A stretch of 64,000 nt of DNA, taken from assembly GCF_008329945.1 (NCBI RefSeq), contig NZ_CP035807.1, positions 1,488,001-1,552,000 on the forward strand, written 5' to 3'. This document shows positions 1 to 55,956 of this stretch, one piece after another. Below the pieces are notes generated by a model, which made no database searches, was not told the origin of the DNA, and was given only the letters and a program-made list of their open reading frames with translations. The DNA comes from Thiospirochaeta perfilievii. Its GTDB lineage: Bacteria; Spirochaetota; Spirochaetia; DSM-2461. A program made the translations under genes and the position numbers. How positions within the stretch are numbered: the first letter of the stretch is position 1; every line of letters starts with the position of its first letter.

Positions 1-477
1 CATAAAAAAATTGCCTTTATAAAGGGTAATATTTTGACTCAAAATGTCACTGAAAGACTTAAGGGGTATAAGGCTGCAATGAGGAAGTTTAACTACCCAA
101 TAAAGGATGAGTGGATATTTGAGGGAGACTATACAATAGCTTCAGGGAGAAGATGTTATAAATATTTGTCTACACTGGAAGATAAACCTACAGCATTAGT
201 TAGCTCTACAGACATAATGGCTTTTGGAGTCTATGAAGAGTTACATGCAACAGGAGAGAGTGTTCCTGATAAGATGTCAATTATTGGTTTCGATGGACAC
301 GAGCTATGTAAATATACAAAACCACCATTAACAACAATTAGACAGCCCCTTGAAGATATGGGGGAAGAGGCTGCTAAAATGCTTATAAACCAAATTGAAG
401 ATAGTAACACAACTAATAAACACCTTATATTCCCAGTTGATTTACAATATGGCGGAAGTGTAAAAAATATTAGTTAA
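1..477 (+). CDS. LacI-family transcriptional regulator, C-terminal part
   Basis: The reading frame is open from base 1, so the N-terminal DNA-binding part lies outside the window. What remains is the periplasmic-binding-protein-like sensor half of a LacI/GalR regulator. Visible landmarks are the ERLKGYKAAM helix, the TALVSSTDIMAFGVYEEL segment, the SIIGFDGHELCKYTKPPLTT segment and the RQPLEDMGEEAAKML helix, which are standard near LacI C-termini. The gene converges on the GH16 gene and overlaps its stop by 8 bp. Being next to the glucan locus, it is a good candidate to recognise the TGTTTRCGYMAACA palindromes found there (inference). Its effector cannot be read from this fragment. Confidence 0.85.
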   Translation, partial: HKKIAFIKGNILTQNVTERLKGYKAAMRKFNYPIKDEWIFEGDYTIASGRRCYKYLSTLEDKPTALVSSTDIMAFGVYEELHATGESVPDKMSIIGFDGHELCKYTKPPLTTIRQPLEDMGEEAAKMLINQIEDSNTTNKHLIFPVDLQYGGSVKNIS

Positions 478-2713
478 CTATTTCTAACTCTATCCAATTA
501 ATATTAATATCTACACCAGAGAGTTTTAAATCAGATATCCCCTTAGGAAGAGTTATCTCTCCCTCTATGGTCTTCCAACTCTGCCAATCCCCTGACCCTT
601 TAAAATCCTGTTTATCAAAACCTAAAACTGTTTCTGCTTTTAAAGGTATATTAGACTTCTCTGAAGCTACTCTATATCTAATTTTATATAGTCCAGCTTT
701 CTCAACATCTAAGCGATATTTTAACCAATCCCCATCTGTCATCCATCCAATATTAAGAGTTCCTTCAGAACAATCTTGGGTTTGAGGGGTATCACTTTTA
801 CTAAAAAAGTCTTCAGCTTCTATTTTACTATATTTAGAAACAACAACTGGTTTTTTAAGTTTAATAAAAGAGACATCATCTAACATAACATTTGCAGATG
901 AATCTCCAAGGGATGGAATAAAGGCGACTCTAACCCTATTATGATCTTCTATTATATTAAACAGTACAGAAAACTCTTTTTTATCCTTTGATAGGTCAAC
1001 AAAATTAGGGCCATAAATTATATCTCCACTATTAGATAGTAGTGCTACAGCTAATTGTCTATTACTTAAACTATAGGATTGGAATTTCATCTCATAGGTC
1101 TCGTTTCCTATAAGGTCTATATTATCTTGATAAAAAATGATTCCATTTGATGTCCCACTAGTGTCAAGAGTTACTATCTTTGCCTCTCTTTGATAAATAT
1201 CAGGGCTTATGTTTATCATAACATCACTACTGCTATCTAGATCTAGCTTCCAGAAAGCCTGCCTGTTATCTCCTCTATCAAAAGTTCCATTATATATTAA
1301 GTTCCCATTAAATAATGGTGTTCTTGATGGTTTTTCTCTCTTTGTAGTTGAAGCCAACTCACCACCAATTTGGGTAAGTTTAACATCGTCAATCCATATA
1401 TCAATATCACTTAACCCCATATTAAACTCATATCTAGCCTTAGGGTCGCTCTTCTCCTTCATTATAAAGTTATAATTGTACTCTCTCATCTCTTCAAAGA
1501 GATCAACATCTATCTCTTTTGAATAGGCAGCCCAACCTCTAGCTTCTAAACCACCAATTTTTAACATTATTTTTCTGGATTTTGCAGCTCTAGCTTTAAA
1601 TGAGATGTTATACTCAATACCCTGTTTTAAATTCATTCCACCCTGGGTTAACTGATTTGCCCATTTCTGCCCACCAGCTGATTTAATCTTTACATGGACT
1701 TCACCATTTTCTACTGCTACAGAGCCAGAACCACTCTCAAAATTACCAAATTCCCAATGATCTAAACCATCATCAAAACCACTATTTAATGTAAAATTTC
1801 CCTCTTTATCAGGGTCTCTTCCTGGTACTTCAGCTTGGGTAGGTCTATCCTTTTTAGGTTTCATTCTAGGGTAAGGTTTAGAGGGTTGATAGACTCTAAT
1901 CCAATCAATCAGCATTTTTTGTGGAAACTTGGTTGTTTCATCAGGACTTCCAGGCCAGTTACCCCCTACTGCAAGATTTAACTGTAGATAAAAATCCCGA
2001 TCAAAGGGTGCAGGGAATGTTAACTCCCCATTTAAAGAGTCTTGGGTACTATACCAATCATTTTGGACCTGAAATAGCTTACCATCAACGTACCATCTTA
2101 TCTCTCCAGGTAACCACTCTAGAGCAAAAATATGATATGAATCACTAAACGAACCCTTTTCTAATGTATAAGAGTCTCCTGTATATTTGTGGGGATTTCC
2201 ATAATGAAGGGTTCCATGGGTCTTATTTGGCTCATGGCCTAAAACCTCCATAATATCGATCTCTCCACAGGCTGGCCAAGGACCATATATGGAGTAGTCT
2301 GTTGGCATCATCCAAAATGCGGGCCAAATCCCCTGTCCTTCTGGAAGTTTAGCCCTAATCTCATATCGGCCATATGTCCAATCCCCCTTATTTTGAGTTG
2401 TTAATTTAGCCGAAGTATAGCTATTACCTTCATAGTCCTCTTTGTGAGCCTCGATAACTAATTTCCCTTTCTCTATTCGGGCATTATCTTCACTATCAGA
2501 GTAGTATTGCAGCTCATTATTTCCATAACCACCACCACCTAGTATAAAGTTCCATTTTGATCCATCAATTGTTTTAGAATTAAACTCATCACTCCAAACT
2601 AGTTGCCAATCAAACTCTGATCTATCAATAACAACACTTTTACTATCTGAAACACAGCCTAAAAAGAGCCCTGTAACACAGATAAATCCAATAAATAAAC
2701 TATACTTCTTCAT
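470..2713 (-). CDS. GH16 endo-beta-1,3-glucanase (laminarinase-like) lipoprotein with three C-terminal carbohydrate-binding modules
   Basis: This 747-residue protein begins with a lipoprotein signal (lipobox LFLGC, Cys20). A GH16 domain spans about 35-278 and contains the catalytic signature GEIDIMEVLG, with E151, D153 and E156 as nucleophile, helper and acid/base by family knowledge. Two beta-sandwich modules resembling CBM4/9 follow (about 300-455 and 470-620). A CBM6-like module (about 629-747) starts at SKIEAEDF and ends with a NWIELEI strand. The architecture predicts an outer-membrane-anchored enzyme that cuts insoluble or long beta-1,3-glucan. It is the last gene of a minus-strand cluster, 12 bp after the phosphorylase. 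Exact specificity (1,3 versus mixed-linkage) cannot be settled from sequence reading. Confidence 0.93.
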   Translation of the reverse strand: MKKYSLFIGFICVTGLFLGCVSDSKSVVIDRSEFDWQLVWSDEFNSKTIDGSKWNFILGGGGYGNNELQYYSDSEDNARIEKGKLVIEAHKEDYEGNSYTSAKLTTQNKGDWTYGRYEIRAKLPEGQGIWPAFWMMPTDYSIYGPWPACGEIDIMEVLGHEPNKTHGTLHYGNPHKYTGDSYTLEKGSFSDSYHIFALEWLPGEIRWYVDGKLFQVQNDWYSTQDSLNGELTFPAPFDRDFYLQLNLAVGGNWPGSPDETTKFPQKMLIDWIRVYQPSKPYPRMKPKKDRPTQAEVPGRDPDKEGNFTLNSGFDDGLDHWEFGNFESGSGSVAVENGEVHVKIKSAGGQKWANQLTQGGMNLKQGIEYNISFKARAAKSRKIMLKIGGLEARGWAAYSKEIDVDLFEEMREYNYNFIMKEKSDPKARYEFNMGLSDIDIWIDDVKLTQIGGELASTTKREKPSRTPLFNGNLIYNGTFDRGDNRQAFWKLDLDSSSDVMINISPDIYQREAKIVTLDTSGTSNGIIFYQDNIDLIGNETYEMKFQSYSLSNRQLAVALLSNSGDIIYGPNFVDLSKDKKEFSVLFNIIEDHNRVRVAFIPSLGDSSANVMLDDVSFIKLKKPVVVSKYSKIEAEDFFSKSDTPQTQDCSEGTLNIGWMTDGDWLKYRLDVEKAGLYKIRYRVASEKSNIPLKAETVLGFDKQDFKGSGDWQSWKTIEGEITLPKGISDLKLSGVDININWIELEIVN

Positions 2714-2725
2714 TAAAAATCCTTT

Positions 2726-5700
2726 CTATTTTTCTAATTCAACTTCTAAATAACTAATAGCCTTATCCTTATTAAAAATCATTAAACTATACTCTTTAGG
2801 CAGTACATTTCCAGGTATATTTTTAGTAGATCCGTCTTTAAAATTAACTGTTATATTAGAACTACTCCCTTTTTTAATAATGTATGGAGTTTGACAATGG
2901 GTTCCTGCAAATGATTTAGCAGGTAATTCGATTACAACTTCACTTCCCGAATTGTTTAATACAGACCAAGTTGTAGCCTTAGTTAAGAATTCTCTATCAT
3001 CTACTAATAGAGAGTTAAAAACCATTTTTCCAGACTCTATAGTAATTCCCATCTCAGCTAATCTAGTAATAACCTCTTCTTTTACCTGACCGGTCATACC
3101 TGGCTGCTTAGCACCCTTAGCATAGGGAGTATGGGAGTATGGGTCAAATGGAAAAGCCCCATAAACATCAGCTGTTTTATTATACCCTATACCGTTTCTA
3201 ATATCGTAATAGTGCTTCTTTAGTGACTCTATAAGCTCTTTAGAAGCCCCTTTCTCCACAGCTGCAAAAAGATTCTCCTGGGCTGCAAGTAGTAACTTAC
3301 TTACCATATGCCAGTATATTGACCCTAATCCTTCATATGCAAAGAAGGTTCCAGACCTTCCAGTAAAGGATTGGTGATCAAAAACAGTATCAAAAATTGA
3401 AACTATCTCATTTTTATCATCTTTAATATTAAGTCTATCCAAACACTCTTTTACTTGTTTAGAGTTATTAAATGAACCGTTAAAATGGTACTGATTGTAA
3501 ATATCCTTTGTAATTAAATCCTTGTTACCCTTGGCAATTAACTCTTTTAAGATAGTATTACCCTCAACAACACTATTTGGAACAATATTCTTTTCGGTAA
3601 AACCTTTAAGCTCCCTATTTGGGTACAACATATAACTATTTTGATCTTCCCTATACATGGAACTATTTCTAAGTGCTTCAAATGTTTTATCAGCTTCCTG
3701 GGGAGTTAACAGACCAGAAGTTAAAATAGCAACCTGCCCTTCTAACATCTCATATAGGTTGTGAATTATCATCTGTTCATCTTTAATTTCTAGAGTATTA
3801 TAGGAGTGGTAAAGATTGTCTTCCCTTCTGTTTTTATATAATGAGTCATCAACACATTTAATAGCGCTTTTTAGGAATTCTAAAATCCCACCTACAGAGA
3901 TTTCACCCTCTTTTACATTTTCCTGATTGTAATATACGGATCTATACTCTTCTGATGCTTCACCTAGCTCTTTAACAATTTTAAACCTCTCACTATTTAA
4001 TAGACTTTTACCTAAGTTGCCCTCGTAACTTTTAAAGATTGATGATAGAGAGTTTAACCACTTTATTGTATCTTCACCCATTTTTATAGAACTATCCGAT
4101 GAATCACTATATAGATCGATCATAAAAGAGATATATCTTCTAATATAGGCTAGGGTTACAACAGAGATCCCCTTTCCAACTAGTGCATTATTAGCGTCAT
4201 TCCACTCAGGTCTTTGGGTATTCATCCAAATACCACCCTCTGGGATAAAGTTTCCTAACTTGGTTAATAGGTGAATCATAAGTTTTTCTGATAGAGATCC
4301 TAATACTATGTTTCCATTTTTATCATGGAGCATTTTACCTTCAGAACCGATCTCTTTAGCAAACGCTTTTACATTTTTATTCTTCTCTTCATTAAAAATA
4401 ATTGTCTCATAAGGATCATTTAAGATCTCTTTATATGTCCTTATTTGGTATGGTACATTTGCGTATGTATAGTTCTTATTATTTAACTCAACTCGAATAC
4501 TTTCAGGGTTGTGTTGTTTATACATTTCAAGAAGTTTTAGAAGGTAGATAATTTGATGATCACTCCAATATCCAATATTTGCCCATGGATTACCAGGTTC
4601 AGGGCACTCCCAATCGATACCATCTTTAGAAACTCGATATGGGTTGTAACCATCCTTAGTTGATGCGTTTAAAAACTTCCCAATAACATGTTTAATATAT
4701 TGAGGATAAGAGAAACATAGAGCCTCCCAGTTCTGGAATATGTCTCTCCAGTTCCCCTGATAATCTAACTTAGCAGAACCATCAGCTTTAGTTGTCTGAA
4801 TAGAAAATCTATTCCAAGGTCTACTTGGGTCTCCATGTCTTCTACTAAATGTTAGTGGAAGGTACTCATACCATAACCTTTCAAGACCACTATCTTTTTG
4901 ATCTAAAATAAATTTTAAAAGATCATTATAGTTCATTTCAGGTTCTAACTGCTCTAGGACAGATCTGTTTTTATTAAATACATTAATATTTGTTTTCTTA
5001 ATAAAATCTTTTAGGTCTTCTGTTCCTATGATATAAGATTTATAGAAAAACCCTCCCCTCATAATGTTAAAAAGAACATTTGCTTGATGGTGAACACTAT
5101 TCATCTCTACTTCAGTTATCTGAAGTCCATCATTCTGGTTAAGAATCTCTTTAAGCTCATTTGTTCCATTCTTTACATCAGCTAAAACTACTTCTTCTCT
5201 ATTTTTTGTATTTAGTATGAAATGTTTAATCTCATTAACCTCTGTAAGGTCCTTATCTACATCGGCTACAAAAATCCACTCTCTCTCTTTTTTTGATCCT
5301 AAAGAGAACTTAGATTGAACAAAATAACAACCCCTTTCACCCTTCTCATCGGTTTCAGTTTTTATAGATTTTCCATGACAGAATTTATCTAGTTGTTTAA
5401 CATCTAAAAGATAGTTCTCTACATCCAGCCCACTCTGCCAAACTGTATTAGCTCTTAAAGCCTCACTAGGTTCTGCAAGATCTGTTAGGGTAGCACTTAG
5501 GGTTATTAGCCCTAAACCACTTTCATCTAGCTGTGTTCTTTTATACCCATTTAATAGACAGCTAAACTCGCTTTGAACCTTTGTTTCTACACCTGAAGGC
5601 ATTAGGTTTTGAAATCCATCTACAATATTTATATTAACATTATTCTCACTTATATTTTTAATTATTGATCTTCTTACTAAACCGTGTTTTTTACTATTCA

Positions 5701-6154
5701 TCCAGTAGTATGAAAAGCTTAGACCTAATGTATTATTTATCTCCTCAAACTTTAGGATATTTCCCATAACATTTTTAGATAAAACACTTTTAATATCATA
5801 AATATCTATACTCTCATTTGTAAATGGTTTCCATAGAAATGTCTTATCCCCTTTAGTAACAAGGATAATGGTTTTTGGACCTGTATTTACTGAATTCTCA
5901 GTAATCCGGTCATCAGTATAATATGGGAATAATGCAGAATCAGAATCGACTCTACCTGCTGTTAACCCTCCAGTACTGGAGATAAACATCCAATGATTAG
6001 AACTACTTGTTATAGTCATAAAAAAGGGAGGCATCTGTGTATAGTTTTCTATCTGATAAAACTTATCGCCATCCATATCTACAAATTTTTCTTTAACTTC
6101 TCCAGAGTTATCAATTAGATATTGATCCCCTAAATACACGTTGTTATCTCTCAT
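2726..6154 (-). CDS. GH149/GH94-like beta-1,3-glucan phosphorylase
   Basis: A large cytoplasmic enzyme of about 1142 residues with no signal peptide. Its length, the motifs GDPSRPWNRFSI and GNWRDIFQNWEAL, and the segment QRPEWNDANNALVG (catalytic Asp candidate D657 when counted from the upstream ATG at 6166) match the phosphorylase clan around GH94, GH149 and GH161. The length of about 1100 residues fits GH149 best. The expected reaction is reversible phosphorolysis of beta-1,3-gluco-oligosaccharides to glucose-1-phosphate. I chose the ATG at 6154 because GGAG sits 6 bases before it, whereas the ATG at 6166 has no ribosome binding site. It lies between GH16 and GH17 genes, which supports a laminarin-oligosaccharide role. 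The family assignment is from memory of motifs and length, not a search. Confidence 0.8.
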   Translation of the reverse strand: MRDNNVYLGDQYLIDNSGEVKEKFVDMDGDKFYQIENYTQMPPFFMTITSSSNHWMFISSTGGLTAGRVDSDSALFPYYTDDRITENSVNTGPKTIILVTKGDKTFLWKPFTNESIDIYDIKSVLSKNVMGNILKFEEINNTLGLSFSYYWMNSKKHGLVRRSIIKNISENNVNINIVDGFQNLMPSGVETKVQSEFSCLLNGYKRTQLDESGLGLITLSATLTDLAEPSEALRANTVWQSGLDVENYLLDVKQLDKFCHGKSIKTETDEKGERGCYFVQSKFSLGSKKEREWIFVADVDKDLTEVNEIKHFILNTKNREEVVLADVKNGTNELKEILNQNDGLQITEVEMNSVHHQANVLFNIMRGGFFYKSYIIGTEDLKDFIKKTNINVFNKNRSVLEQLEPEMNYNDLLKFILDQKDSGLERLWYEYLPLTFSRRHGDPSRPWNRFSIQTTKADGSAKLDYQGNWRDIFQNWEALCFSYPQYIKHVIGKFLNASTKDGYNPYRVSKDGIDWECPEPGNPWANIGYWSDHQIIYLLKLLEMYKQHNPESIRVELNNKNYTYANVPYQIRTYKEILNDPYETIIFNEEKNKNVKAFAKEIGSEGKMLHDKNGNIVLGSLSEKLMIHLLTKLGNFIPEGGIWMNTQRPEWNDANNALVGKGISVVTLAYIRRYISFMIDLYSDSSDSSIKMGEDTIKWLNSLSSIFKSYEGNLGKSLLNSERFKIVKELGEASEEYRSVYYNQENVKEGEISVGGILEFLKSAIKCVDDSLYKNRREDNLYHSYNTLEIKDEQMIIHNLYEMLEGQVAILTSGLLTPQEADKTFEALRNSSMYREDQNSYMLYPNRELKGFTEKNIVPNSVVEGNTILKELIAKGNKDLITKDIYNQYHFNGSFNNSKQVKECLDRLNIKDDKNEIVSIFDTVFDHQSFTGRSGTFFAYEGLGSIYWHMVSKLLLAAQENLFAAVEKGASKELIESLKKHYYDIRNGIGYNKTADVYGAFPFDPYSHTPYAKGAKQPGMTGQVKEEVITRLAEMGITIESGKMVFNSLLVDDREFLTKATTWSVLNNSGSEVVIELPAKSFAGTHCQTPYIIKKGSSSNITVNFKDGSTKNIPGNVLPKEYSLMIFNKDKAISYLEVELEK

Positions 6155-6182
6155 TACAATCTCCATTTAACTTATTTTATCT

Positions 6183-6200
6183 TATGTTTACGCAAACATA
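6183..6200. promoter_or_regulatory. LacI-type palindromic operator upstream of the phosphorylase
   Basis: TATGTTTACGCAAACATA is an 18-bp near-perfect palindrome with a central CG, the classical shape of LacI/GalR-family operators. It lies 29 bp before the chosen phosphorylase start and after the stop of the GH17 gene. Its 14-bp core TGTTTACGCAAACA recurs with small changes at 15792 and 21604. Confidence 0.6.
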
Positions 6201-6229
6201 TTAACTTACAATTTACAATAACGCAAGTT

Positions 6230-7153
6230 TTAAAACAGCTCATTAATAACTAATTTCGGTTTTCTTTCTATGGAATATAATCCCCAGTGCTTCTCTGGCT
6301 CTAGGGGCTCAGAAGAACCCTTCCACTCTTCATCAAAAGCCTCAAATAAAAAAGTTAAGATTTTATTTTGTTTTGACCATGTAACTAGTTCTCTACAATA
6401 TCTAGCCTGTAACTCTTGATTAACATTTTCAGGTTCAATACCTCGCCCATTTGAGTTAGTGGCCCAACCCGCCTCTGTAATTATTACAGGAGTATCTGGA
6501 TATCTATTTGCAACTCCATAATAGTTCTCCTTTGTATAATCCATCGCTTGGTCTATACTCTTATACTCCCAAACTGGATATGTATGTATAGAGATAAAGT
6601 CTAAAACTCTAACTAATGGTTCTAGTTTATCCATCCATGGAACATAGTTCTCACAAAATGTTACAGGTTGTTTTGTCCCTTTTTTTACCATCTTTGCATA
6701 TTCAATTACACTCTCTACAGGTACTAAATGGTCAGACCAATCAACAGTTGCTTCATTCCCCACAGATATGGAAAAAATTATTTCCGGATAGAGATTCCCA
6801 AGTTCGATAGCCCTCTCGATCTCTTTTCTATTTTTTATTTTATTAGACTCAAGTTTTTCCTTGCTATAAATGGCTCCCCATGGACAGTTTGGATTGCTAA
6901 CTTCAGCTGTAATATATGTCCCAAGCATAACTTTAAAATCAAAGCTCTCTTTCTCGATTACTTCTAATACTGTTGAGGCATGGGGTGTGCAGTCGTAAAG
7001 CCTTAAATAACCCCAATTATCTTTTAAAATGAGTAGATCCTCTTTTATCTCATCATAAGATGGGGATAGAGCTCCAGGAGCTTGCCCTTTTCTATAACCT
7101 GAATAACATATTGAATTTTTATATGCTATATTAAATTTACTCTCTAGTGTCAC
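6230..7153 (-). CDS. GH17 family beta-1,3-glucanase or glucanosyltransferase, cytoplasmic
   Basis: This 307-residue protein is a single (beta/alpha)8 GH17 catalytic domain. The acid/base is expected in SVGNEATVDW (E134) and the nucleophile in VIITEAGWAT (E227). SICYSGYRKGQ near the N-terminus and LFEAFDEEWKG near the C-terminus are also typical. There is no signal peptide, so it should act in the cytoplasm on imported oligosaccharides, either hydrolysing them or transferring glucosyl units. It overlaps the upstream GH17 gene by 17 bp, indicating translational coupling, and precedes the phosphorylase. It resembles the lipoprotein GH17 at 8144-9955 more closely (SGYR.GQ and GNE..VDW blocks) than it does its immediate neighbour. 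Confidence 0.88.
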   Translation of the reverse strand: MTLESKFNIAYKNSICYSGYRKGQAPGALSPSYDEIKEDLLILKDNWGYLRLYDCTPHASTVLEVIEKESFDFKVMLGTYITAEVSNPNCPWGAIYSKEKLESNKIKNRKEIERAIELGNLYPEIIFSISVGNEATVDWSDHLVPVESVIEYAKMVKKGTKQPVTFCENYVPWMDKLEPLVRVLDFISIHTYPVWEYKSIDQAMDYTKENYYGVANRYPDTPVIITEAGWATNSNGRGIEPENVNQELQARYCRELVTWSKQNKILTFLFEAFDEEWKGSSEPLEPEKHWGLYSIERKPKLVINELF

Positions 7154-8066
7154 TATTTACCTCACTTATCATACTTTCTAGGGCATATTTATGATTACCG
7201 TTTTTATCCCACAATCCCCAATATGCTCCTACATCTCCCTCATCTTCTACTTTCCAAGCCTCATCAAATGTAGAGAAATAAAAGATTTCGATATTATCTT
7301 CTTTAGCCCAATTATATGTATTTATAAAGTATTTTACAGCATTTTCTCTAGAAGGTACTGCACCCCAGAACTTTGTTCCAATATTTGGCCAACCAGTTTC
7401 GCTTATTATTACTTTTTTACCATTTGCAGCTTTAGTAGCCCTTCTAAACATATCTTTCATATAGAGCAGAGAGTGTTCCAAGGAACAACCTTCCCAAAAA
7501 GGGTAGCAGTTTGCCAATATAACATCGCAAACTTCAGATATTTTAGGTCTATCTCCAAACTCATAATAGGCATCCACATATCCTACAGGTACTCCAGATA
7601 TTTGGCTTTTAACCATATCTATATAGTTTATTAATAACTCTTCGGAAACATCCTCTCTTAACATAACCTCGTTACCTACTGCAACTATATCTGCATATCC
7701 AGCTTTAGCAATATCTACTACAGATCTAATCTCATCTAAATTTTTATCATGATCCTTACCGATCCAAGCTCCGACCAATGTTTTAAGACCAAAATCATGG
7801 GCTATTTTTGCAATTCTCTCATTCCCATCTGTTGTTGAGAATATTCTTATCCACTTTGTATATGGTTTAATTATCTTAATTTTATCTATAATCTGTTTAT
7901 CTGAAATTTTATCACCAGGTTTTTGATGTTCTAAATATGGACTAAAACACATGCCATGAACACCATCTTTTAATATAGACGTGAATTCATCAGTTATCTG
8001 ATTTTCTGTTTTTTCTCTAAAGTCCCGACCTGCGAGGGACATATATTTGTAACCTTTACTCGACAT
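7137..8066 (-). CDS. GH17 family glycosidase/transglycosidase, second cytoplasmic copy
   Basis: A 309-residue GH17-like TIM barrel without a signal peptide. Catalytic candidates are E133 in VAVGNEVMLR and E223 in IISETGWPN. Sequence around the barrel (HGMCFSPYLEHQKPGD, WIRIFSTTDGNE) differs from the other two GH17 proteins, so it is a separate subfamily and not a recent duplicate. The SETGWP form is shared with eukaryote-like GH17 and bacterial glucanosyltransferases. It may trim or rearrange beta-1,3 or beta-1,6 branches before phosphorolysis (inference). The gene is 77 bp downstream of the start of the lipoprotein GH17 gene and overlaps the next GH17 gene. Confidence 0.85.
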   Translation of the reverse strand: MSSKGYKYMSLAGRDFREKTENQITDEFTSILKDGVHGMCFSPYLEHQKPGDKISDKQIIDKIKIIKPYTKWIRIFSTTDGNERIAKIAHDFGLKTLVGAWIGKDHDKNLDEIRSVVDIAKAGYADIVAVGNEVMLREDVSEELLINYIDMVKSQISGVPVGYVDAYYEFGDRPKISEVCDVILANCYPFWEGCSLEHSLLYMKDMFRRATKAANGKKVIISETGWPNIGTKFWGAVPSRENAVKYFINTYNWAKEDNIEIFYFSTFDEAWKVEDEGDVGAYWGLWDKNGNHKYALESMISEVNSDTRE

Positions 8067-8097
8067 TTTTTACCTCTTTCAAACTTATAAAAAAGTA

Positions 8098-8119
8098 AAG
8101 GGATATTCCATCCCCTTAC
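8098..8119 (-). terminator. Possible weak intercistronic hairpin or terminator
   Basis: On the minus strand the stretch reads AAGGGGATGGAATATCCCTT and is followed by TACTTTTTT. It can form a short imperfect stem followed by a U-rich run between the lipoprotein GH17 gene and the cytoplasmic GH17 gene. It may reduce readthrough to the downstream genes. The stem is imperfect. Confidence 0.35.
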
Positions 8120-8143
8120 CTATTAAAAATATCTATAAAATTA

Positions 8144-9955
8144 CTAGTTCTGTGTCCATCTAATTTTATCTACATTAACGACTGCCGTATCAGGGTTACC
8201 ATCCCTGTCTCCTATAACAAAAGGAATATATACTTTCCCTAAGTTAATTGTTCCGCCAGTATTTCCAAAACTGTGTGAACCAATTGCTACAAGATCAGAT
8301 ATAGGAATTGAGACCTCATGCCATTGCCCATCGTTTAAATAACCATAACTGTTGTTAGTTGGGTCTACTGTTTTTATTAGATCCCAACTATCACCATCAG
8401 CACCATAGCCTGTTTGGCAACCTATCTCTATATTTCCACTATAAGTTGTTTTTATACTAAAAGTTAGATGCCCATTTGAAAATGCTGATAGATCCATACC
8501 CTGCTTTTTCATTAAAGCCATCATACCCCATCCCCATGATTCTGGTGTTGGCTGAATTGGGGCAATAAAGTCATTATCACCCCCGGTTTCCTGGCCATCT
8601 CCTGCTAAATAATCATCAAATCCTGCAGTACTATTGTTCTCCCAGGATTCCCATTGTAGGTTGTTTTCTTCTCCAGCTAGCTGGCCATTGTACCCAACAG
8701 ATAGATCCTCTCCCATTACTATAAAAATAGAGTCTGTAACCGTATATATAGGGTCTAGATCAACAGGAATTACATAAACAGCATCGGAATCTGTATATGA
8801 GTTGGCATCTGTTGTAAACTCTAGTGTTGACCATGTAGCATTACTTGAAACAATGTATTTAGCCTCCCTATTTACATTAAAGAAACCCCAATGGTCATCG
8901 GAGGATTTCCATGGCTCATCAAAGGCTTCAAAGAAGAAACAAGTCACCGGACTATCAATATCTGTTTCTAACCATTGATTCATTTTCTCATAATACATAG
9001 CTTGGTTAACCTGGTGGCCAATATTTTCAGCATCTCCACTATCCTGCCAACCTGATTCCCCAATAACTATTGGTTTATCAAATCCAAGGGAGACAATATT
9101 ATTTTTAACCGCATCATAGTTTTTTTCTGCATAATCAATTGCTGCATTCATCATAGCATCTGCTCTTTCAGCTTCTGGAGTATCTTCTAAAACATGATCC
9201 CATAAGCCGTGTTCAGCATCGAATATTGGATATGTATGTATAGCTAAAAAGTCTACTGCCTTAATTACAAGTTCAACATCGGCATATGGTCCTACAGTAT
9301 TTGATTCATCCTTCATAGACCATGGTTCCCAGTTATCATCTACTGTAATGGGTTGAGTAACCTTACTTCGAATATATGTTGCATAACCTGCTACATGGGC
9401 AGCTGGTACTGCGTGACCAAAAGTATTCCAGTCGACCATACACTCATTTCCTACACTAATAGCTAAAACAGTATCTGAGTATTCCCCATTAGCCAATGTT
9501 ACAGCCTTATCTAAGTTCTCTATATTTATTAAATCTTCGGCTTCAGTTGCTCCTGCAATCCAAACACCAAGCATTACTTTCATATCTAAATTGTTTGTTT
9601 TAATTACTTCAAGAACCCTCTCTGCGTGGGTAGAAGTGTCATATAACCTTATTAAAGTTAACCCCATTGATTCTAACATTTGTAAATCTTCTAAAATCTG
9701 GTCAGTTGTAGGATATATCTTAGTATCAGGGGATTGTCCTTCCCTATAACCAGAATAACTAATTGCTTTTCTAGTTGTAAAATCATCTGGTAGAGCTCTT
9801 AATGTTGTAACTGTTTCACTTGGTAGTGCATCTACTATAGAAGTAGTTGGTATTGTTCCATTACCAGGAACATTTTCTCCTAAAAAATCACACCCAGTAA
9901 ATAATAGTGTAAATAAAAATGTGAAACTAATTATTAGTTTTTTATGTAATTTCAT
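8144..9955 (-). CDS. GH17 beta-1,3-glucanase lipoprotein with C-terminal binding domain
   Basis: This 603-residue lipoprotein has a lipobox FTGC with Cys22. The GH17 barrel covers about 60-380, with acid/base candidate E171 in SVGNECMVDW and nucleophile candidate E300 in VIGESGWQDS. A C-terminal domain of about 200 residues contains WESWENN, SWGWGMM and a final VVNVDKIRW strand. It looks like a CBM11- or CBM4-type beta-sandwich. The protein is expected on the cell surface or periplasmic face, acting on glucan before import. It follows the FIVAR-like lipoprotein gene after a strong hairpin, so its expression may be lower than that of the upstream gene. Confidence 0.88.
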   Translation of the reverse strand: MKLHKKLIISFTFLFTLLFTGCDFLGENVPGNGTIPTTSIVDALPSETVTTLRALPDDFTTRKAISYSGYREGQSPDTKIYPTTDQILEDLQMLESMGLTLIRLYDTSTHAERVLEVIKTNNLDMKVMLGVWIAGATEAEDLINIENLDKAVTLANGEYSDTVLAISVGNECMVDWNTFGHAVPAAHVAGYATYIRSKVTQPITVDDNWEPWSMKDESNTVGPYADVELVIKAVDFLAIHTYPIFDAEHGLWDHVLEDTPEAERADAMMNAAIDYAEKNYDAVKNNIVSLGFDKPIVIGESGWQDSGDAENIGHQVNQAMYYEKMNQWLETDIDSPVTCFFFEAFDEPWKSSDDHWGFFNVNREAKYIVSSNATWSTLEFTTDANSYTDSDAVYVIPVDLDPIYTVTDSIFIVMGEDLSVGYNGQLAGEENNLQWESWENNSTAGFDDYLAGDGQETGGDNDFIAPIQPTPESWGWGMMALMKKQGMDLSAFSNGHLTFSIKTTYSGNIEIGCQTGYGADGDSWDLIKTVDPTNNSYGYLNDGQWHEVSIPISDLVAIGSHSFGNTGGTINLGKVYIPFVIGDRDGNPDTAVVNVDKIRWTQN

Positions 9956-9978
9956 CTATGCCTCCTGCAATAGAAAAA

Positions 9979-9998
9979 TCTGGGTCCGAAGACCCAGA
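9979..9998 (-). terminator. Rho-independent terminator or attenuator with UUCG loop
   Basis: On the minus strand TCTGGGTC-TTCG-GACCCAGA is followed directly by TTTTTCT. This is an 8-bp perfect stem with a stable UUCG tetraloop and a U-tract, placed just after the binding-lipoprotein gene and 24 bp before the GH17 lipoprotein start. It probably makes the upstream lipoprotein more abundant than the downstream enzymes. Confidence 0.85.
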
Positions 9999-10031
9999 AA
10001 GGAAAATAAAATATGCTTTGCTTAAAAAGTT

Positions 10032-12011
10032 TTAGTTAACTGAAAATGCAACATCAGTTAAATAGAAAGTACCTGCACCCCAGCAAAAAATACCAAACTG
10101 GTTTGTCGCTGACATATCGCCAAAAACGCTTAGTGGAATTTCTACTTGAGTCCAACCATTACCAAGATCTGTTCCGTAATCAGCAATTACAAAAGTTAAC
10201 TCTGCATTAGTAGCAAGATCCATTTTAACAACAACTTCAGAATAATCAGTTGTTTTCATTTTAAAAGATATAGCAGTTTTATCTGTAAAATCACCTGCTG
10301 TATATCCTACAAATGCAGCAACTGCAACATCACCCCAACCAGTACCAGAAACAACCATTAATGCTGGATTATATACTTGATCTGTGGCATCTGAATGAGT
10401 AGAACCCGAGTTCCATAAATCAGTTGTACCTGCAAAATTTTCTGTTTCTGTTGACGCCCATACATATTGATCAAAGATAAAAGCATTAGGTATTCGACTT
10501 GCAGCATTAAAAGCAGTTGTTGCATCAGCAAGAGTTGTTACAGCAGCTTCTATTTCAGCGTCAGTTGAAGCAGGATTATCCATTACAGCCTGTGCTGCAG
10601 TTATTGCTTCTGCATATGCAGTGTAATCAGATTCTACTTCTGTATTACCTGGCTCTGTACCAAATGGATGAGAAGTAAGTGATACTTCAGCATCAGCAAT
10701 TGGCTGGAATAATTTATGTACTTGTGTTTCTGAATAAGTAATATCATCAATATAATAAGTTTCTTCTTCTGTCATAACACCGTCATGGTTAGGAATTAAA
10801 ACAAGTTTATTTTGGCCTTCATTTAAAGTACCAAAATCAAAACTTAAAGTTTCCCATTCGCTTGAAGTAGTGGTATAAGCAACAACTTCCTGATAACCTG
10901 CAGCTGCACCCTCAATTTTAAATGTAAACTTCTGTCCTACAGCTGGTGAGTATAGTTTTAACTCAAATACTGCAGTAGAACCTACATTAAACGCTCTAGT
11001 ATCTATTATTGCTAAAGCCCATGCTGCCGCATCTACTGGTTTAATTACTTTAAGTACGTTATTTGTATTATCTAATGGATCAACATCAATTGAAGTTATT
11101 GAACCAGAATCTGCAACAACCTCTGGAGCTGGATCTTCATCAAAGTTATATATAGTAGTAAAAACATAAGAAATAGTAGCTTTAAAGTCAGCTATTGCAG
11201 TGTTTAAAGCTACTTTTGCAGCATCTATATCTGCAATAGTTATAGCTGCATCTTTTGAAACAATTACAGCATCTAGAGCTGTTTGGAAAGTTTCTTTTGA
11301 ACCAACACCATACTCACCACTAGCTGTACCCTCTACAGCAGCATCATGTAATGCTTGAGCTAAAGTTAGATCAGCTTCAAAGTTGAATAAATCGATGTCA
11401 AACTGCGTATATCTAGCAGCTTCAAAAACCTCAGTTGCTGTAGCTAGAGCCACTATTGCATCATTTAATTCCTGTAAAGTAGGAGCTGTTGGCCGATCAT
11501 CAGCAAGTAGAGCAACCACAACGCCCCTCGCTATAGAGAAGTTAGCAGAATCGGCTATAGATATGCCACCTACAACAAAAGCTGTCCCAACACTTCCACC
11601 TAAAACATCCGCAGTTGCTAAAGCTGCTGTTAGATCAGCTTTAGCACTTGCCAACTCTGAATCTTCTAAACTCTGCTGAGTAATAATTGCATCATTAAAT
11701 GCTACGGTTGCAGTAGCTAGAGTGGTTACAGCAGCGTTTACATCAGTTTGTGTTACTCCTGAATCTTCATTAACGCCCTCAGCTACAGTTATAGCATCAT
11801 CGTAAGCCGAAGCAGCATCAGCAGGCACATTTCCAACATCAGAACCAACAGTAGTTCCTTCTAATAATGTGTTAGCATTTCCTATAGCTGCTACTAATAT
11901 GCTTTTATCAACAGTTACTCCATCATCAGCTGGGAACAACAGATCACATGAAGTAATTAGTAGTGAAAACAATACTAAAAACACAATAAAAAAGTTCTTT
12001 TTTTTCATCAA
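10032..12011 (-). CDS. Surface lipoprotein with FIVAR-like helical repeats and carbohydrate-binding-like domains
   Basis: This 659-residue protein has a lipoprotein signal (LLITSC). Residues of about 35-280 and again about 440-505 form Ala-rich helical repeats (patterns such as DAITVAEGV, AAVTTLATATVAFNDA) resembling FIVAR or sugar-binding three-helix modules. Two beta-rich segments, about 290-430 and 515-659, end in TYYIDDITYS and AGTFYLTDVAFSV, strands typical of CBM-like jelly rolls. No catalytic motif is seen. Its place between a GH17 lipoprotein and a secreted GH-like protein suggests it captures or displays glucan at the surface (inference). Codon use is richer in GC than the neighbours in the Ala-rich part. 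I do not recognise a named family for the whole protein. Confidence 0.75.
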   Translation of the reverse strand: MMKKKNFFIVFLVLFSLLITSCDLLFPADDGVTVDKSILVAAIGNANTLLEGTTVGSDVGNVPADAASAYDDAITVAEGVNEDSGVTQTDVNAAVTTLATATVAFNDAIITQQSLEDSELASAKADLTAALATADVLGGSVGTAFVVGGISIADSANFSIARGVVVALLADDRPTAPTLQELNDAIVALATATEVFEAARYTQFDIDLFNFEADLTLAQALHDAAVEGTASGEYGVGSKETFQTALDAVIVSKDAAITIADIDAAKVALNTAIADFKATISYVFTTIYNFDEDPAPEVVADSGSITSIDVDPLDNTNNVLKVIKPVDAAAWALAIIDTRAFNVGSTAVFELKLYSPAVGQKFTFKIEGAAAGYQEVVAYTTTSSEWETLSFDFGTLNEGQNKLVLIPNHDGVMTEEETYYIDDITYSETQVHKLFQPIADAEVSLTSHPFGTEPGNTEVESDYTAYAEAITAAQAVMDNPASTDAEIEAAVTTLADATTAFNAASRIPNAFIFDQYVWASTETENFAGTTDLWNSGSTHSDATDQVYNPALMVVSGTGWGDVAVAAFVGYTAGDFTDKTAISFKMKTTDYSEVVVKMDLATNAELTFVIADYGTDLGNGWTQVEIPLSVFGDMSATNQFGIFCWGAGTFYLTDVAFSVN

Positions 12012-12036
12012 AATCTCCTAATTTTTTTATATTATT

Positions 12037-15000
12037 TTAGTAGCTCATGCTACTGTAAATACCTATTTCCATATCATACTCTCGAGTAGCGTCGGCTATA
12101 TCTGAGTATTCACTATATGTTTTTTGCCTAGCAAAAATTCCAATTTTTGATGTTGAAACTGAGAATTTAGGTTTATCAAAAAAGTATGCTAAATCGACTT
12201 TCCACTGTAATGGGTATGTAATATTCCAATCTCTTTGCCACTCATTAGAGTTCTCAAAACCCCAACCATTTAGCAATATATTCCCCTCTAGAGCTAGTTT
12301 GTTATATTTAACTTTTAGATCAGCTCCCATTGAACGAGTTAATCTGTTAGAACCATCATCTAAAGGAACTAAATCAGTACCAAAACTCTGTTGTACACCA
12401 ATGAAGTAGTCAAAACCGATTTTAAACTGGGGTAGAGGATTACTTATTGTTTTTAACTTTACAGACCAAAGGTTTTCACATGCTTCCATTGGAGAGGAAA
12501 ATGCATACTCTGTTGTAGAGTTAGCCTTAAACTTCCCTATATCAGAGACTCCTGTGGACAAGATATATAGAAGGGATATAGATCCAGCGAATTTTGCTTC
12601 TTCTATATCAAATGCATTCCAGTCATGAAACCAAGTTGCTCCTGTTGGGTCAAAGGTAATAACCATTTCACCTTCTAGAGTTTCACGGTTGTGATACACA
12701 TAAAATGGAGCTGTTAATGGGTTTCTATTACCTGAAGTATCTGGGCCAACTAAAGGAGAGATACTTCTTCCCACAATATCAAATGTTAAATCGGAATAAA
12801 CAATCTTCGCTCCGATATTAATTTCCTGCCTATTACCAAGACCACTATCTGCTTTAAATAAACCACCCCTTGCCATCATTGCATTTGTATCAGCAACAAG
12901 ACCTGAATAGACATATCTACCATAAAGCTCTGTATATCTAAAAATCTTTGTAGATAAGTCTACTTTCCCTGATAATGAATCTAACAAAGTTATCTCTTTA
13001 CTGCTTAAACCACCATCAGTAGAATATGTCTCTCCTACTTTGTCAGACCCAGCAAAATAACCACCTGCAATAACATCAACATATGGATACATTTCAAAAT
13101 GACCGGACAAGCTTGCAGATTGAGTGGTGTTCTCCCCAACTTCAATCTCTTTGACATCAAAATCCTGCTGTATTAAAGCTGCAAAACCATACTGAGCTGT
13201 TCCGCTATTCATATCCTTTGTATACTTAGCAATTGCTTGGGGTCTTGCTCCATAATATATTTCAGGACCAGCATATATTTTAAGACCATCTAATGAACCA
13301 TTACCTGTAAACATTAGACCGTAGGGAGCTAACGAACCATTTAAATCCATACCATCCATATCAAATGATTCAGGCATCATATTAAAATAGTCACCTTCAA
13401 GATACCAATCAGCAAGCCCTGTATGAAAATAACCGTTAATGTCAAAAAGTGGATTTGTATACTCAAATGAACCACTATATAGCTGAACAGGTTCTTGATT
13501 TACATTAGGATCAGTAAATAGGGGGTCATATGTAGAACCACGAAACTTAACACTTACATCTCCTGTTAAATTTTCCACAGGCTTAAACCCAAATGTTAAT
13601 GTTAACTCCTCAGACCTTCTCTCTGTTAACTCTGGAAGTTGATATAGAGCTGGATTGCTATCTTTAGCTGCTTGAACTTCAAGGTTGGAAAATGATTCAG
13701 AGAAATTAAGGTCTAACTTAATACCATCAATAGAAACAAAGTCTAATTTCTGTTCATTTTTGGTAACATTTGCTTCACCTAAAGATACAAATTTTATAGG
13801 ATCAATTTTAGCAAAATGCTCTTCTACCTCTTCGGGAGTACTGTCGTACATTGAAAGTGACCATATATCACCTAAGGTATAAAATGCAGCTCTAGGGATT
13901 CTTCTATTAATACCGGCTTTTTTTAATTGGCTCTGGGCAACAATACCAAACCACTCTTCGTTCATATTTGGAGTTCCTGTCTCGGCATCAAATCTATAAC
14001 CACCATTTGTCCAGGAACCAACTGTAGCATGCACATCTAAGTGGCTATCTAAACCATTTTTCCACCACTCATCAATCCATTCAAAGACAAATCCACCTAC
14101 AGCATTTTGATACTTACCCTTACCATAACTTTGAGAATAGATCTCTTTCCACTGATCTCTAATATATTGAGCTTGGTGATATTGGTCTTCTGTATCTGTT
14201 TTTGTATTGTATGCATCAGCCCCAAACTCGGTAAAAACAACAGGAACATTCAATCCTTGAATACTCTTGTAAAATAGGTCAGAGGCTTCACTACCCCTAT
14301 AGGTATTAACACCCATAATTTTCATACTTGGAACTAATGCTTCGATTATATTTAAGTACTGAATATCCCCATTTACTATTCCAGATGGGTGATTATGGTC
14401 AAGTCTTCTAGCAACTTCCAAAACCTCTTCATAAAGGCTATAAAGATATCCCGCTCGAGCCTCCATACGTTGTCCCGTAGGAAGGTTTTCAATATTATCA
14501 CTCTCCCACTCTAGCCCGTAGTTATTTTCGTTACCAAACATAAACATTAAGACCCCGGGAGTATTTCTATAATCTTTAATTACTCTAAATGCCTCTTCTT
14601 TAATGGCTTCTCGAGTATAAAAATCTGAATAATCTGTTCTAGCATGCCACTTTCCATTAACTGTTACCCCATATCTACCAAATGTGTAGTTTACTATTGT
14701 GTAGATACCATGTTGAAAATATAGATACTCTATCCATCTAGCAGGAACTTCACTAAAAACACGAATCGAATTGACACCAATCTGCTTCATTAGCTCCGCA
14801 TCTGTATCTATCATTCTTTTAATAAACTCATCAGACTGGGACCATAAATCATAGGTATATTTCTCTCCTATTGGAGTAAATGCCCATACTACACCCTTGA
14901 CTTCAAATGGCTTTTTATCTACAAACAGCCTAAAACCGTTGTCATCCTGTTTTATCTCTACTTTATTCACCTGTGCAACAGTCTGAAAACCAATTAAGGC

Positions 15001-15039
15001 AAGTAGAAGTAGTAATATTACTCTATTTATTGTTCTCAT
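12037..15039 (-). CDS. Secreted GH2-type TIM-barrel glycosidase fused to an outer-membrane barrel-like C-terminal half
   Basis: This 1000-residue protein starts with a cleavable-type signal peptide ending near TVAQ. Residues of about 28-420 resemble the catalytic TIM barrel of GH2/GH5-like enzymes: FGNENNYG (E171, acid/base candidate) and VVFTEFGADAY (E271, nucleophile candidate). The remaining 580 residues alternate hydrophobic and polar residues in long strands with many aromatics and Asp/Asn turns, and the chain ends in SSMSY, as outer-membrane barrels often end in an aromatic. I infer a catalytic domain held at the outer membrane by its own barrel. The gene sits 2 bp after the CBM9-like gene and 25 bp before the FIVAR-like lipoprotein, so it is part of the glucan operon. 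Substrate cannot be assigned. Confidence 0.7.
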   Translation of the reverse strand: MRTINRVILLLLLALIGFQTVAQVNKVEIKQDDNGFRLFVDKKPFEVKGVVWAFTPIGEKYTYDLWSQSDEFIKRMIDTDAELMKQIGVNSIRVFSEVPARWIEYLYFQHGIYTIVNYTFGRYGVTVNGKWHARTDYSDFYTREAIKEEAFRVIKDYRNTPGVLMFMFGNENNYGLEWESDNIENLPTGQRMEARAGYLYSLYEEVLEVARRLDHNHPSGIVNGDIQYLNIIEALVPSMKIMGVNTYRGSEASDLFYKSIQGLNVPVVFTEFGADAYNTKTDTEDQYHQAQYIRDQWKEIYSQSYGKGKYQNAVGGFVFEWIDEWWKNGLDSHLDVHATVGSWTNGGYRFDAETGTPNMNEEWFGIVAQSQLKKAGINRRIPRAAFYTLGDIWSLSMYDSTPEEVEEHFAKIDPIKFVSLGEANVTKNEQKLDFVSIDGIKLDLNFSESFSNLEVQAAKDSNPALYQLPELTERRSEELTLTFGFKPVENLTGDVSVKFRGSTYDPLFTDPNVNQEPVQLYSGSFEYTNPLFDINGYFHTGLADWYLEGDYFNMMPESFDMDGMDLNGSLAPYGLMFTGNGSLDGLKIYAGPEIYYGARPQAIAKYTKDMNSGTAQYGFAALIQQDFDVKEIEVGENTTQSASLSGHFEMYPYVDVIAGGYFAGSDKVGETYSTDGGLSSKEITLLDSLSGKVDLSTKIFRYTELYGRYVYSGLVADTNAMMARGGLFKADSGLGNRQEINIGAKIVYSDLTFDIVGRSISPLVGPDTSGNRNPLTAPFYVYHNRETLEGEMVITFDPTGATWFHDWNAFDIEEAKFAGSISLLYILSTGVSDIGKFKANSTTEYAFSSPMEACENLWSVKLKTISNPLPQFKIGFDYFIGVQQSFGTDLVPLDDGSNRLTRSMGADLKVKYNKLALEGNILLNGWGFENSNEWQRDWNITYPLQWKVDLAYFFDKPKFSVSTSKIGIFARQKTYSEYSDIADATREYDMEIGIYSSMSY

Positions 15040-15041
15040 CT

Positions 15042-15821
15042 TTACTCCTCACCTTTTTTAACAACTTGACCCTTACCCCATACAGAGGCATCATTCCATG
15101 GGTCATCCTTTTCACTCATCCAGTGAACTAATCTATCCCTCTCTGTGTCATCAGCATCATTTAACTGAAACTCACACTTAATCTTCTGACCAGGCTTTAA
15201 CTCTTTTATCATTAGTATTGAAAGGGGAATTGCAGCTTCTACCTCATATCCATCTTCGTTATAAGAAAAAGCAGCAGAAACTTGGGATGTTTTTGTAACA
15301 TCATTTATTGAAACTTCAAAAGCAAAGGGATCGTCTTTACTTACAGGAACTAATCTTATCTGGTTATCTGTCATCTTATATTTCTTATGGGATGAGGTAT
15401 CTATACCAATAAACATCTCGACAGAGTCTCCCCTCCAGGCCATACTTCCAGAAAGTTTATTCTCATTTACTATGTCATCAGTTACTCTAGAATAGATAAA
15501 AAGTGTAGAACCATCAGTTTTTAAAACAAACCGAGCCTCACCATCTTTTGGATCATGACTAGAACCTAATACAACAACCCTTGTTGTTGGTCCATCAAAA
15601 CCTTCCCACTCCCCAAAAATCCCATCGATAACAGGTATTTCATCAACCCAATAAACAGGAGTCACTTCACCAACTGGCGGTTTTATTCTATTAGCAGAAG
15701 CTTCAGCCATACTCTCATTCCATGGAGATGGTACAGGCTTTTTTTCTGTAGTGGTCAAACTAAACCCGCTAACAACTACAAACAAAAGTATTGTTTGCGC
15801 CAACATAATCTTTTTTAACAT
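15042..15821 (-). CDS. Exported CBM9-like carbohydrate-binding protein
   Basis: The open frame extends to 15980, but the segment MLKKIMLAQTILLFVVVSG is a signal peptide preceded by AAAGGAAGAG, so the ATG at 15821 is the better start (259 residues). The mature protein has the CBM9/DOMON-like opening VYWVDEIPVIDGIFGEWEG, a central RGDSVEMFIGID strand, and a closing WNDASVWGKGQV segment. These are standard for the family-9-like binding fold. It is the first gene of the minus-strand glucan cluster, diverging from the ROK regulator gene. A palindrome matching the one at 6185 lies inside its first codons. It probably binds sugar at the surface or in the periplasm. Confidence 0.8.
   Translation of the reverse strand: MLKKIMLAQTILLFVVVSGFSLTTTEKKPVPSPWNESMAEASANRIKPPVGEVTPVYWVDEIPVIDGIFGEWEGFDGPTTRVVVLGSSHDPKDGEARFVLKTDGSTLFIYSRVTDDIVNENKLSGSMAWRGDSVEMFIGIDTSSHKKYKMTDNQIRLVPVSKDDPFAFEVSINDVTKTSQVSAAFSYNEDGYEVEAAIPLSILMIKELKPGQKIKCEFQLNDADDTERDRLVHWMSEKDDPWNDASVWGKGQVVKKGEE
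15792..15805. promoter_or_regulatory. Putative operator, second copy of the TGTTTRCGYMAACA motif
   Basis: TGTTTGCGCCAACA lies 16-29 bases inside the CBM9-like gene, counted from its ATG. It matches the palindrome at 6185-6198 in 12 of 14 positions. A repressor bound here would block elongation or initiation. It is also coding sequence, so chance is possible. Confidence 0.4.
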
Positions 15822-16019
15822 ATCTCTTCCTTTAAAATTATATATAGGGCCTAAAAAAAATAGACTTAATCCATAGTTAGTTTCTTTCTTACTCAAACAT
15901 ACTAAATCTGAAAATAGATTATCGTCAAGCTTTAAATAGCAAATTAGGGAATAAATAGTTTGCTTAGTATAAAAACACATATTTTACTTATATGGTTTGT
16001 TGCTAAAAGAAACCAACCA

Positions 16020-16054: not shown

Positions 16055-17209
16055 ATGCAAACTCAATACTCATATAATGCTTCTAGGGTGTTACAAACAG
16101 TCTGGCAGCATGATTCAACAAGTAGAACGTTAATCTCTAAAGAGCTAGGTCTAAACAAATCGACTATTACTAAACTATTAACACCAATGATTGAGAACAA
16201 TATAATTGTAGCAGTTGAAAAACAAGCTAGTGGGCAACAGGGCGGCCGAAAAGCCGAAGTTCTATCTATAAACGAAAAGTTTGGAGTTGTTATTGGGATT
16301 GAGATCCATACATCGTTTTCAGCAATCTGCATAACAGACTTAAAGGGGAACATTTTAGTTACTAACAAGTTTCAGAATAATGACTCTCTTGAAAGTTTCC
16401 AAGAACTAATAGAGTTTGTAATAGATTCTTCAGTTTCTATTTGTAAAAGACGTCAATACAATATTATTGGAGCAACTCTAGGTGTTTCAGGTGTGATAAA
16501 TCCCTACGAAGGTATTATTTACAGGTCAAACCCATTGGGCATTGATACGCCTGTAAAAATATACCAAAAACTAGATAAGTACCCATTCCCTATACTTGTA
16601 GAGAATGATGCAAACTGTTGTTGTTATACTCAACAAATACCCTCAGAGAATAACCGAACACGAAATTTTATTTGTATTTTAGGGGAGTTCCGAAAGGCTA
16701 CAAGGCTCTCTAAAAATGAAAGTGGTATTGCTATTGGTATTGGTATAATGATTAAGGAGAGCATTTTACACGGTGAGGACTTTTCTGCAGGAGAGTTTCA
16801 AAGTCTCTATAAAAGCGAGGAGAACCCATCCCAATTTGATTTAAAACCTGAAGAGATTCAAAATATTCAAGATGATGAAGTTTTATTAAAAAAGGTTCTA
16901 AGGGAACTATCTAGAAATATATCACTCCTAGTTAACACACTAAATATCTCCTTAGTATATTTTGAAGGAAATATTACTGATTATCAATTTATGCTTAAAC
17001 CAATTTTAAGGGACGAAATCCAGAGGAACTGGAACTATGATAATCAGGTAGATTGTCAAATACAGTTTTCAGAAAAAAGAGACTTCGCTGTTGCCCATGG
17101 AGCTGCATGCTGCTTCTTGGAAAAGCTCTTCTCACCATCCAAATTTTGGGAAGATAGGAAGGAGTACTACCCTTCAGGAATTGATCTTTTTAATTTTATT
17201 AATAATTAA
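16055..17209 (+). CDS. ROK-family transcriptional regulator (NagC/XylR/Mlc type)
   Basis: This 384-residue protein has an N-terminal winged helix (SRTLISKELGLNKSTITKLL, about 25-45) followed by a ROK domain. The ROK part has the ATP/sugar-fold segments GVVIGIEIHTSF, ATLGVSGVINPYEG and PILVENDANCCC. The usual ROK zinc-binding GH...CxCGxxGC cluster is not evident, so it is a regulator and not a sugar kinase. It is divergent from the CBM9-led glucan cluster and probably controls it or another nearby gene in response to a sugar or phosphosugar. Its 3' end overlaps the convergent gene by 11 bp. Confidence 0.88.
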   Translation: MQTQYSYNASRVLQTVWQHDSTSRTLISKELGLNKSTITKLLTPMIENNIIVAVEKQASGQQGGRKAEVLSINEKFGVVIGIEIHTSFSAICITDLKGNILVTNKFQNNDSLESFQELIEFVIDSSVSICKRRQYNIIGATLGVSGVINPYEGIIYRSNPLGIDTPVKIYQKLDKYPFPILVENDANCCCYTQQIPSENNRTRNFICILGEFRKATRLSKNESGIAIGIGIMIKESILHGEDFSAGEFQSLYKSEENPSQFDLKPEEIQNIQDDEVLLKKVLRELSRNISLLVNTLNISLVYFEGNITDYQFMLKPILRDEIQRNWNYDNQVDCQIQFSEKRDFAVAHGAACCFLEKLFSPSKFWEDRKEYYPSGIDLFNFINN

Positions 17210-33767: not shown

Positions 33768-33768
33768 A

Positions 33769-34539: not shown

Positions 34540-34547
34540 AATCTCTC

Positions 34548-55949: not shown

Positions 55950-55956
55950 ATTTATT

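Follow-up and report, generated by a model that had tools for sequence, protein, structure and literature searches.

The window, that is, the whole stretch of 64,000 nucleotides of Thiospirochaeta perfilievii analysed here (contig NZ_CP035807.1, positions 1,488,001 to 1,552,000), carries on its minus strand an operon, from 470 to 15980, that is rich in beta-1,3-glucan genes. A CBM9-like gene comes first in this operon, followed by a fusion gene that is the subject of this report, a CBM11-like lipoprotein, a GH17 lipoprotein, two GH17 genes without signal, GH149 and a GH16 lipoprotein. The neighbours of the fusion gene, listed in the direction of transcription of the operon with the divergent regulator at the head, are as follows:

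16055..17209, plus: divergent ROK-family regulator (domain scan), likely a local repressor; a ROK gene also lies near the relatives at loci L121, L125 and L126
15042..15824, minus: CBM9-like secreted protein (Pfam CBM9_1, E 1e-23), directly upstream of the fusion (2-base gap), its true start being probably 15824; found in the same place in most spirochaete loci
10032..12011, minus: FIVAR/CBM11-like lipoprotein, non-catalytic, directly downstream of the fusion (25-base gap; domain scan, signal reading)
8144..9955, minus: GH17 lipoprotein with a CBM30-like C-terminus (domain scan, lipobox signal)
7137..8066, minus: GH17 without signal peptide (domain scan)
6230..7153, minus: GH17 without signal peptide (domain scan)
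2726..6166, minus: GH149 beta-1,3-glucan phosphorylase, cytoplasmic (NCBIfam NF058639, 1522 bits for a cutoff of 1150)
470..2713, minus: GH16 lipoprotein with CBM4/9 and CBM6 (domain scan, lipobox signal)

The two signal-less GH17 genes beside GH149 overlap (6230-8066, minus); an intracellular GH17 is unusual, and these enzymes may process imported oligosaccharides. Elsewhere in the window, two sugar ABC transporter sets lie with a GH31 gene and an AraC-type regulator (50644-62537), a candidate inner-membrane route, and the minus-strand region 32334-37214 codes for a large membrane protein (MMPL/RND-like by reading), a protein resembling those of outer-membrane lipoprotein sorting and a 477-aa protein that may itself be in the outer membrane.

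The fusion gene is a single unbroken ORF with an ATG start, and its parts are the following:

12037..15039, minus: whole fusion gene, 1000 aa, with signal peptide, glycosidase domain and outer-membrane beta-barrel (ORF, full-length relatives, AF2)
14971..15039, minus: Sec-type signal peptide without lipobox, about residues 1-23 (MRTINRVILLLLLALIGFQTVAQ; sequence reading, with helix 3-19 in the AF2 model)
13810..14961, minus: clan GH-A-like (beta/alpha)8 glycosidase domain, about residues 27-410 (Pfam, GH158 profile, fold match)
14524..14535, minus: GNEN motif, residues 169-172, with predicted acid/base E171, invariant and aligned with the GNE of GH158 structures
14215..14232, minus: TEFGAD motif, residues 270-275, with predicted nucleophile E271, invariant and aligned with the TE[WF]G of GH158 structures
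12043..13737, minus: predicted outer-membrane beta-barrel of about 24 strands, residues 435-999 (AF2, PDB matches, alternation test, loop asymmetry)
12592..12651, minus: long near-side (periplasmic) turn of the barrel, residues 797-816, DPTGATWFHDW... (loop analysis)

The earlier note on this DNA had proposed a glycosidase-like catalytic barrel joined to a C-terminal outer-membrane beta-barrel, and both the AF2 models and the fold matches agree with it. It had also placed the gene next to lipoprotein glucanases, which is right for the GH17 (8144-9955) and GH16 (470-2713) proteins, both with a lipobox, whereas the immediate downstream neighbour is a lipoprotein without catalytic domain. The chain does end in an aromatic residue, as noted then (SSMSY, in IYSSMSY); what stands at this place in relatives is a last strand such as YLNIGL, YVDLTY or YLIYRF. 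By reading, the protein thus appears to combine a Sec signal with a C-terminal beta-signal strand, the pair that marks outer-membrane barrel proteins. A chance or assembly join is excluded, because the same two-part ORF recurs in dozens of genomes, with 31-50% identity over about 970 residues.

The GNEN and TEFGAD motifs read as catalytic in the earlier note are present, and their glutamates E171 and E271 are invariant in an alignment of 14 relatives. Pfam recognises a single family in the N-terminal domain, Glyco_hydro_2_C (PF02836), as a weak match (E 2.4e-5, 3 bits over cutoff). The family profile finds GH158 endo-beta-1,3-glucanases (E 3e-9, covering only positions 132-319), and the best fold matches are to GH157 (Z 27.6), GH158 (Z 27.2) and GH2 glucuronidases (Z about 27). 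As modelled, the catalytic domain is a clan-A glycosidase, a TIM barrel with the conserved Glu pair that this clan carries on strands 4 and 7, equally near by fold to GH157, GH158 and GH2. It is not a GH2 enzyme in the full sense: the catalytic domain begins at about residue 27, no N-terminal sandwich domains of the GH2 kind precede the TIM barrel, and PF02836 is all that Pfam finds. The GH158 and GH157 endo-beta-1,3-glucanases (BuGH158 6PAL, GH158(Pro) 9ORO, LaGH157 9G4N) are alike in fold (Z 27-28, 290-318 residues aligned), in the clan-A catalytic glutamates and in their beta-1,3-glucan loci, but they share only about 16-22% identity with the fusion and have no outer-membrane barrel. Hydrolysis would be the activity of this domain, and locus context and nearest folds point to beta-1,3-glucan as its predicted substrate.

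No Pfam or NCBIfam family matches the C-terminal half, and its profile run against PDB sequences gives chance matches only. Modelled alone, residues 430-1000 fold in AF2 (pLDDT 72, pTM 0.70) into long strands joined by tight turns, as they do in the full-chain model, and we count 24 strands on the AF2 model. With this model as query, nearly all of the top 50 Foldseek matches are outer-membrane barrels (BtuB, OprD-type, FimD). The VIA matches that span the whole barrel model are mostly 24-strand ushers, PapC/FimD (Z 13-15, about 355-378 residues, rmsd 4.3-6.4), while AlgE, OprD and MOMP match its residues 1-437 only (AlgE at Z 16-17). Hydropathy alternation within strands, the strands themselves being picked from the AF2 model, is 2.71 against 1.43 +/- 0.21 in within-strand shuffles (0 of 2000 as high), and 2.38 against 1.20 +/- 0.17 when computed on the family profile. 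These results support the prediction that residues 435-999, approximately, form an outer-membrane beta-barrel of about 24 strands, probably a closed one. Stacked beta-sandwich modules, the outcome that would have spoken against the earlier note, appear in neither AF2 model nor in any top structural match. The PapC/FimD barrels share the 24-stranded geometry (full-span match, rmsd 4.3-5.2 for most), but neither the usher plug, the N- and C-domains nor pilus genes are seen here, and the likeness is structural only. Nor is the fusion a SusC-type TonB-dependent transporter, as no TonB Plug domain matches it at E 0.1. DUF5916, which also carries a barrel, together with CBM9, aligns with the fusion barrel at an hhalign probability of 0.2%, a weak test since the DUF5916 alignment held two sequences; no DUF5916 was found in the genome itself, by a search in which the control was silent too.

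The connections between strands are strongly asymmetric: loops after odd strands, on the far side, have a mean of 19 residues, and turns after even strands, on the near side, a median of 2 (Mann-Whitney p 1.4e-4). Both ends of the barrel sit on the short-turn side. The short turns of outer-membrane barrels are, as a rule, periplasmic, and both ends, hence the enzyme, should therefore be periplasmic; from the loop asymmetry, we infer that the glycosidase lies beneath the barrel and not at the cell surface. Invariant motifs are found in the barrel loops and in one turn. Segment 797-816 stands out as the one long turn on the near side and as the connection with the highest conservation in the barrel; it could possibly act as a docking or plug element. 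Conservation is no higher in strand residues that face the lumen than in those that face the lipid (JS 0.480 vs 0.471, p 0.30), which gives no help to a specific channel.

The architecture was described as unusual in the earlier note, a qualifier that should be dropped. Relatives that match over the full length, at 31-50% identity, are present in Treponema, Gracilinema and further spirochaetes, in a Chromatiales MAG and in Winogradskyella, and the fusion is also present in the gut bacterium Bacteroides finegoldii and in Persicobacter. Across 395 genomes of the window's class, all 22 barrel matches fall in ORFs of 987-1077 aa. The barrel is found in 54 of 249 Flavobacteriaceae genomes (about a fifth), mostly in ORFs of 1033-1096 aa, with the glycosidase domain present in all 12 of the barrel loci read there, and in 4 of 321 genomes of the class of the Chromatiales MAG (Gammaproteobacteria); a search without positive control in the class of a Verrucomicrobiota locus (L019) gave none in 188 genomes. 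Judged from these sequences, the fusion is widespread and old, shared by spirochaetes and by marine and gut bacteria. The 40 fused rows of the glycosidase-domain tree all belong to one clade of 43 (SH-aLRT 98) that has three unfused rows inside; the simplest reading, within the limits set by a quick method and long branches, is a single origin of the fusion with later loss of the barrel in some. One Flavobacteriaceae locus (L119) holds stand-alone and fused glycosidase copies together, beside GH149 and SusC/SusD. Five Omnitrophota loci (L022, L025, L030, L031, L037) code for a stand-alone copy and, adjoining it, for a larger protein whose C-terminal part is of the same GH family; the larger protein of L022 has TPR repeats, and genes near it resemble a sugar ABC transporter.

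The two parts also exist apart. Elusimicrobia and further classes of the window's phylum have barrel-only relatives of about 600-720 aa. In seven loci (L029, L038, L039, L095, L096, L132 and L133) these lie near a related glycosidase gene; the overlap between the two genes is a few bases in L095 and about 30 (as ORFs) in L039. In these split forms, barrel and enzyme are separate proteins, each with its own signal peptide; given that their genes are neighbours, the two parts seem to work together even when separate.

Wherever it is found, the fusion is almost always beside beta-1,3-glucan genes (GH16, GH17, GH149, CBM lipoproteins). The gene order CBM9, fusion, GH16 is repeated in many Treponema loci, and the order fusion, CBM-like lipoprotein, GH16 in 12 of 12 Flavobacteriaceae loci, in B. 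finegoldii and in Persicobacter; a homologue of the CBM-like lipoprotein follows the fusion in two spirochaete loci (L123 and L128) too. GH149 lies within the 20 kb read in 11 of the 12 Flavobacteriaceae loci. The B. finegoldii locus (L141, NZ_OY725931.1) is on a "Plasmid 29" with valyl-tRNA ligase and rpsA, probably a chromosomal piece mislabelled as a plasmid. Six of the 12 loci read in Flavobacteriaceae, and L017 as well, have SusC/SusD along with the fusion; the pair was not seen in the bases read, roughly 8-13 kb flanks and less for some loci, of the six other Flavobacteriaceae loci, B. finegoldii, Persicobacter or any spirochaete locus. The genome studied here has a single TonB-dependent receptor (Plug search; 622 aa), 0.9 Mb away. 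With no SusC/SusD seen nearby and the sole TonB-dependent receptor far off, it is evidently the fusion that supplies this locus with its outer-membrane barrel.

We, thus, favour, at about an even chance, the reading that the fusion couples an enzyme to an outer-membrane channel through which beta-1,3-glucan (laminarin-type) oligosaccharides enter, working alongside surface lipoprotein glucanases. It is based on the barrel fold, the sidedness, the invariant catalytic pair, the nearest folds including the beta-1,3-glucanases GH157/GH158, the locus and the split versions. Computation shows the fusion itself, the fold classes, the catalytic pair, the synteny and the single clade; periplasmic placement, substrate, hydrolysis and conduction of sugar by the barrel are inferred. 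The exported protein would use the Sec route and insert its C-terminal barrel in the outer membrane; both ends of the barrel would be periplasmic, leaving the glycosidase to hang under its mouth on that side. Surface lipoproteins (CBM proteins, GH16/GH17 endo-glucanases) would bind and cut the polymer, glucan chains would pass inward through the barrel, and the tethered glycosidase would cut or re-cut them on arrival, the rest being left to an ABC transporter and, in the cytoplasm, to the GH149 phosphorylase. Several points stand against this channel: SusC/SusD could do the uptake in half of the Flavobacteriaceae loci, the lumen residues show no extra conservation, the barrel model is of moderate quality (pLDDT 72) and the relative placing of the two domains is uncertain (full-chain pTM 0.50).

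The first two of these points also favour a barrel that is no more than an anchor, keeping the glucanase in the periplasm against the inner side of the outer membrane and leaving transport to another porin or to SusC, a reading that is rather unlikely in our view. A 24-strand barrel is a costly anchor when neighbouring proteins use lipoprotein signals, its loops and one turn bear invariant motifs, and SusC/SusD were not seen in the bases read of the spirochaete loci. The earlier note had spoken of a glycosidase with its own membrane anchor, and the barrel stands; in such a locus, "anchor" probably says too little for 24 strands joined by short turns on the near side and long loops on the far side. 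The substrate could also be another one, for example a mixed-linkage or branched beta-glucan or a beta-1,6 side chain, with architecture and role unchanged. The catalytic domain is as near by fold to GH2 glycosidases (Z about 27) and its CAZy family is not assignable here, but GH149 is by its NCBIfam name a beta-1,3-glucan phosphorylase family and GH157/GH158 are beta-1,3-glucanases, which makes a different substrate unlikely.

In classical type V autotransporters, the passenger precedes a barrel of about 12 strands and 250-300 residues at the C-terminus. The fusion has the same order, and the lipoprotein glucanases encoded beside it may be displayed on the cell surface; one could then imagine that the barrel exports its own glycosidase to the cell surface. 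The barrel is about twice that of this class, with some 24 strands over 565 residues, and the split relatives make barrel and enzyme separately, each with its signal peptide, so that we hold such self-export to be quite improbable. Even less probable is the export of a glucan made by the cell itself, with the barrel as secretion pore and the glycosidase trimming the product, as in AlgE/AlgL or BcsC/BcsZ: AlgE is among the best fold matches, but it is tied with the unrelated porins MOMP and OprD, the scan of the locus genes recognised neither a synthase nor a glycosyltransferase, and GH149, GH16 and GH17 degrade glucans. The enzyme-coupled channel could, more broadly, belong to a TonB-independent, SusCD-free glycan import machine common to Spirochaetota, Bacteroidota and Gammaproteobacteria, in which a surface CBM lipoprotein and a surface endo-glucanase would feed a channel whose periplasmic glycosidase pulls uptake forward by shortening or removing chains; we put this forward tentatively, as a somewhat doubtful generalisation.

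Few marine sugars are as abundant as laminarin. The enzyme-barrel fusion, conserved in laminarin loci and annotated simply as GH2, would give it a second way across the outer membrane. The fusion also offers a testable answer to how spirochaetes, with no SusC seen in these loci, take up long glucans. The copy of B. finegoldii, WP_022275059.1, is the same protein (33.6% identity over 96% of its length, two genes from GH16); its RefSeq name, "glycoside hydrolase family 2 TIM barrel-domain containing protein", is silent on the outer-membrane barrel and on a beta-1,3-glucan role. A "GH2" beside GH16 and GH149 in Muricauda laminarin loci (PMC13188888) and a highly expressed unclassified "GH0" adjoining GH149 in laminarin loci of bloom MAGs (PMC10108472) may be fused or unfused members of the same enzyme family. 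Laminarin uptake by Bacteroidota is described mainly via SusC/SusD (PMC6246565). Such Sus-like systems share with the fusion loci the surface lipoprotein binding proteins, an endo-glucanase and an outer-membrane barrel, but the fusion has no recognised TonB plug, its enzyme is within the barrel protein and no SusD homologue was seen in the spirochaete loci. An incomplete search over open-licence papers found none on a glycosidase fused to a porin or outer-membrane barrel. The closest precedent in print comes from the laminarin loci of Formosa, where a GH17 enzyme is fused to an MFS transporter (GH17-MFS), a fusion which that paper calls undescribed in other bacteria (PMC6246565). There too a glucanase is joined to a transporter, but the carrier is a helical one of the inner membrane and the enzyme belongs to another GH family.
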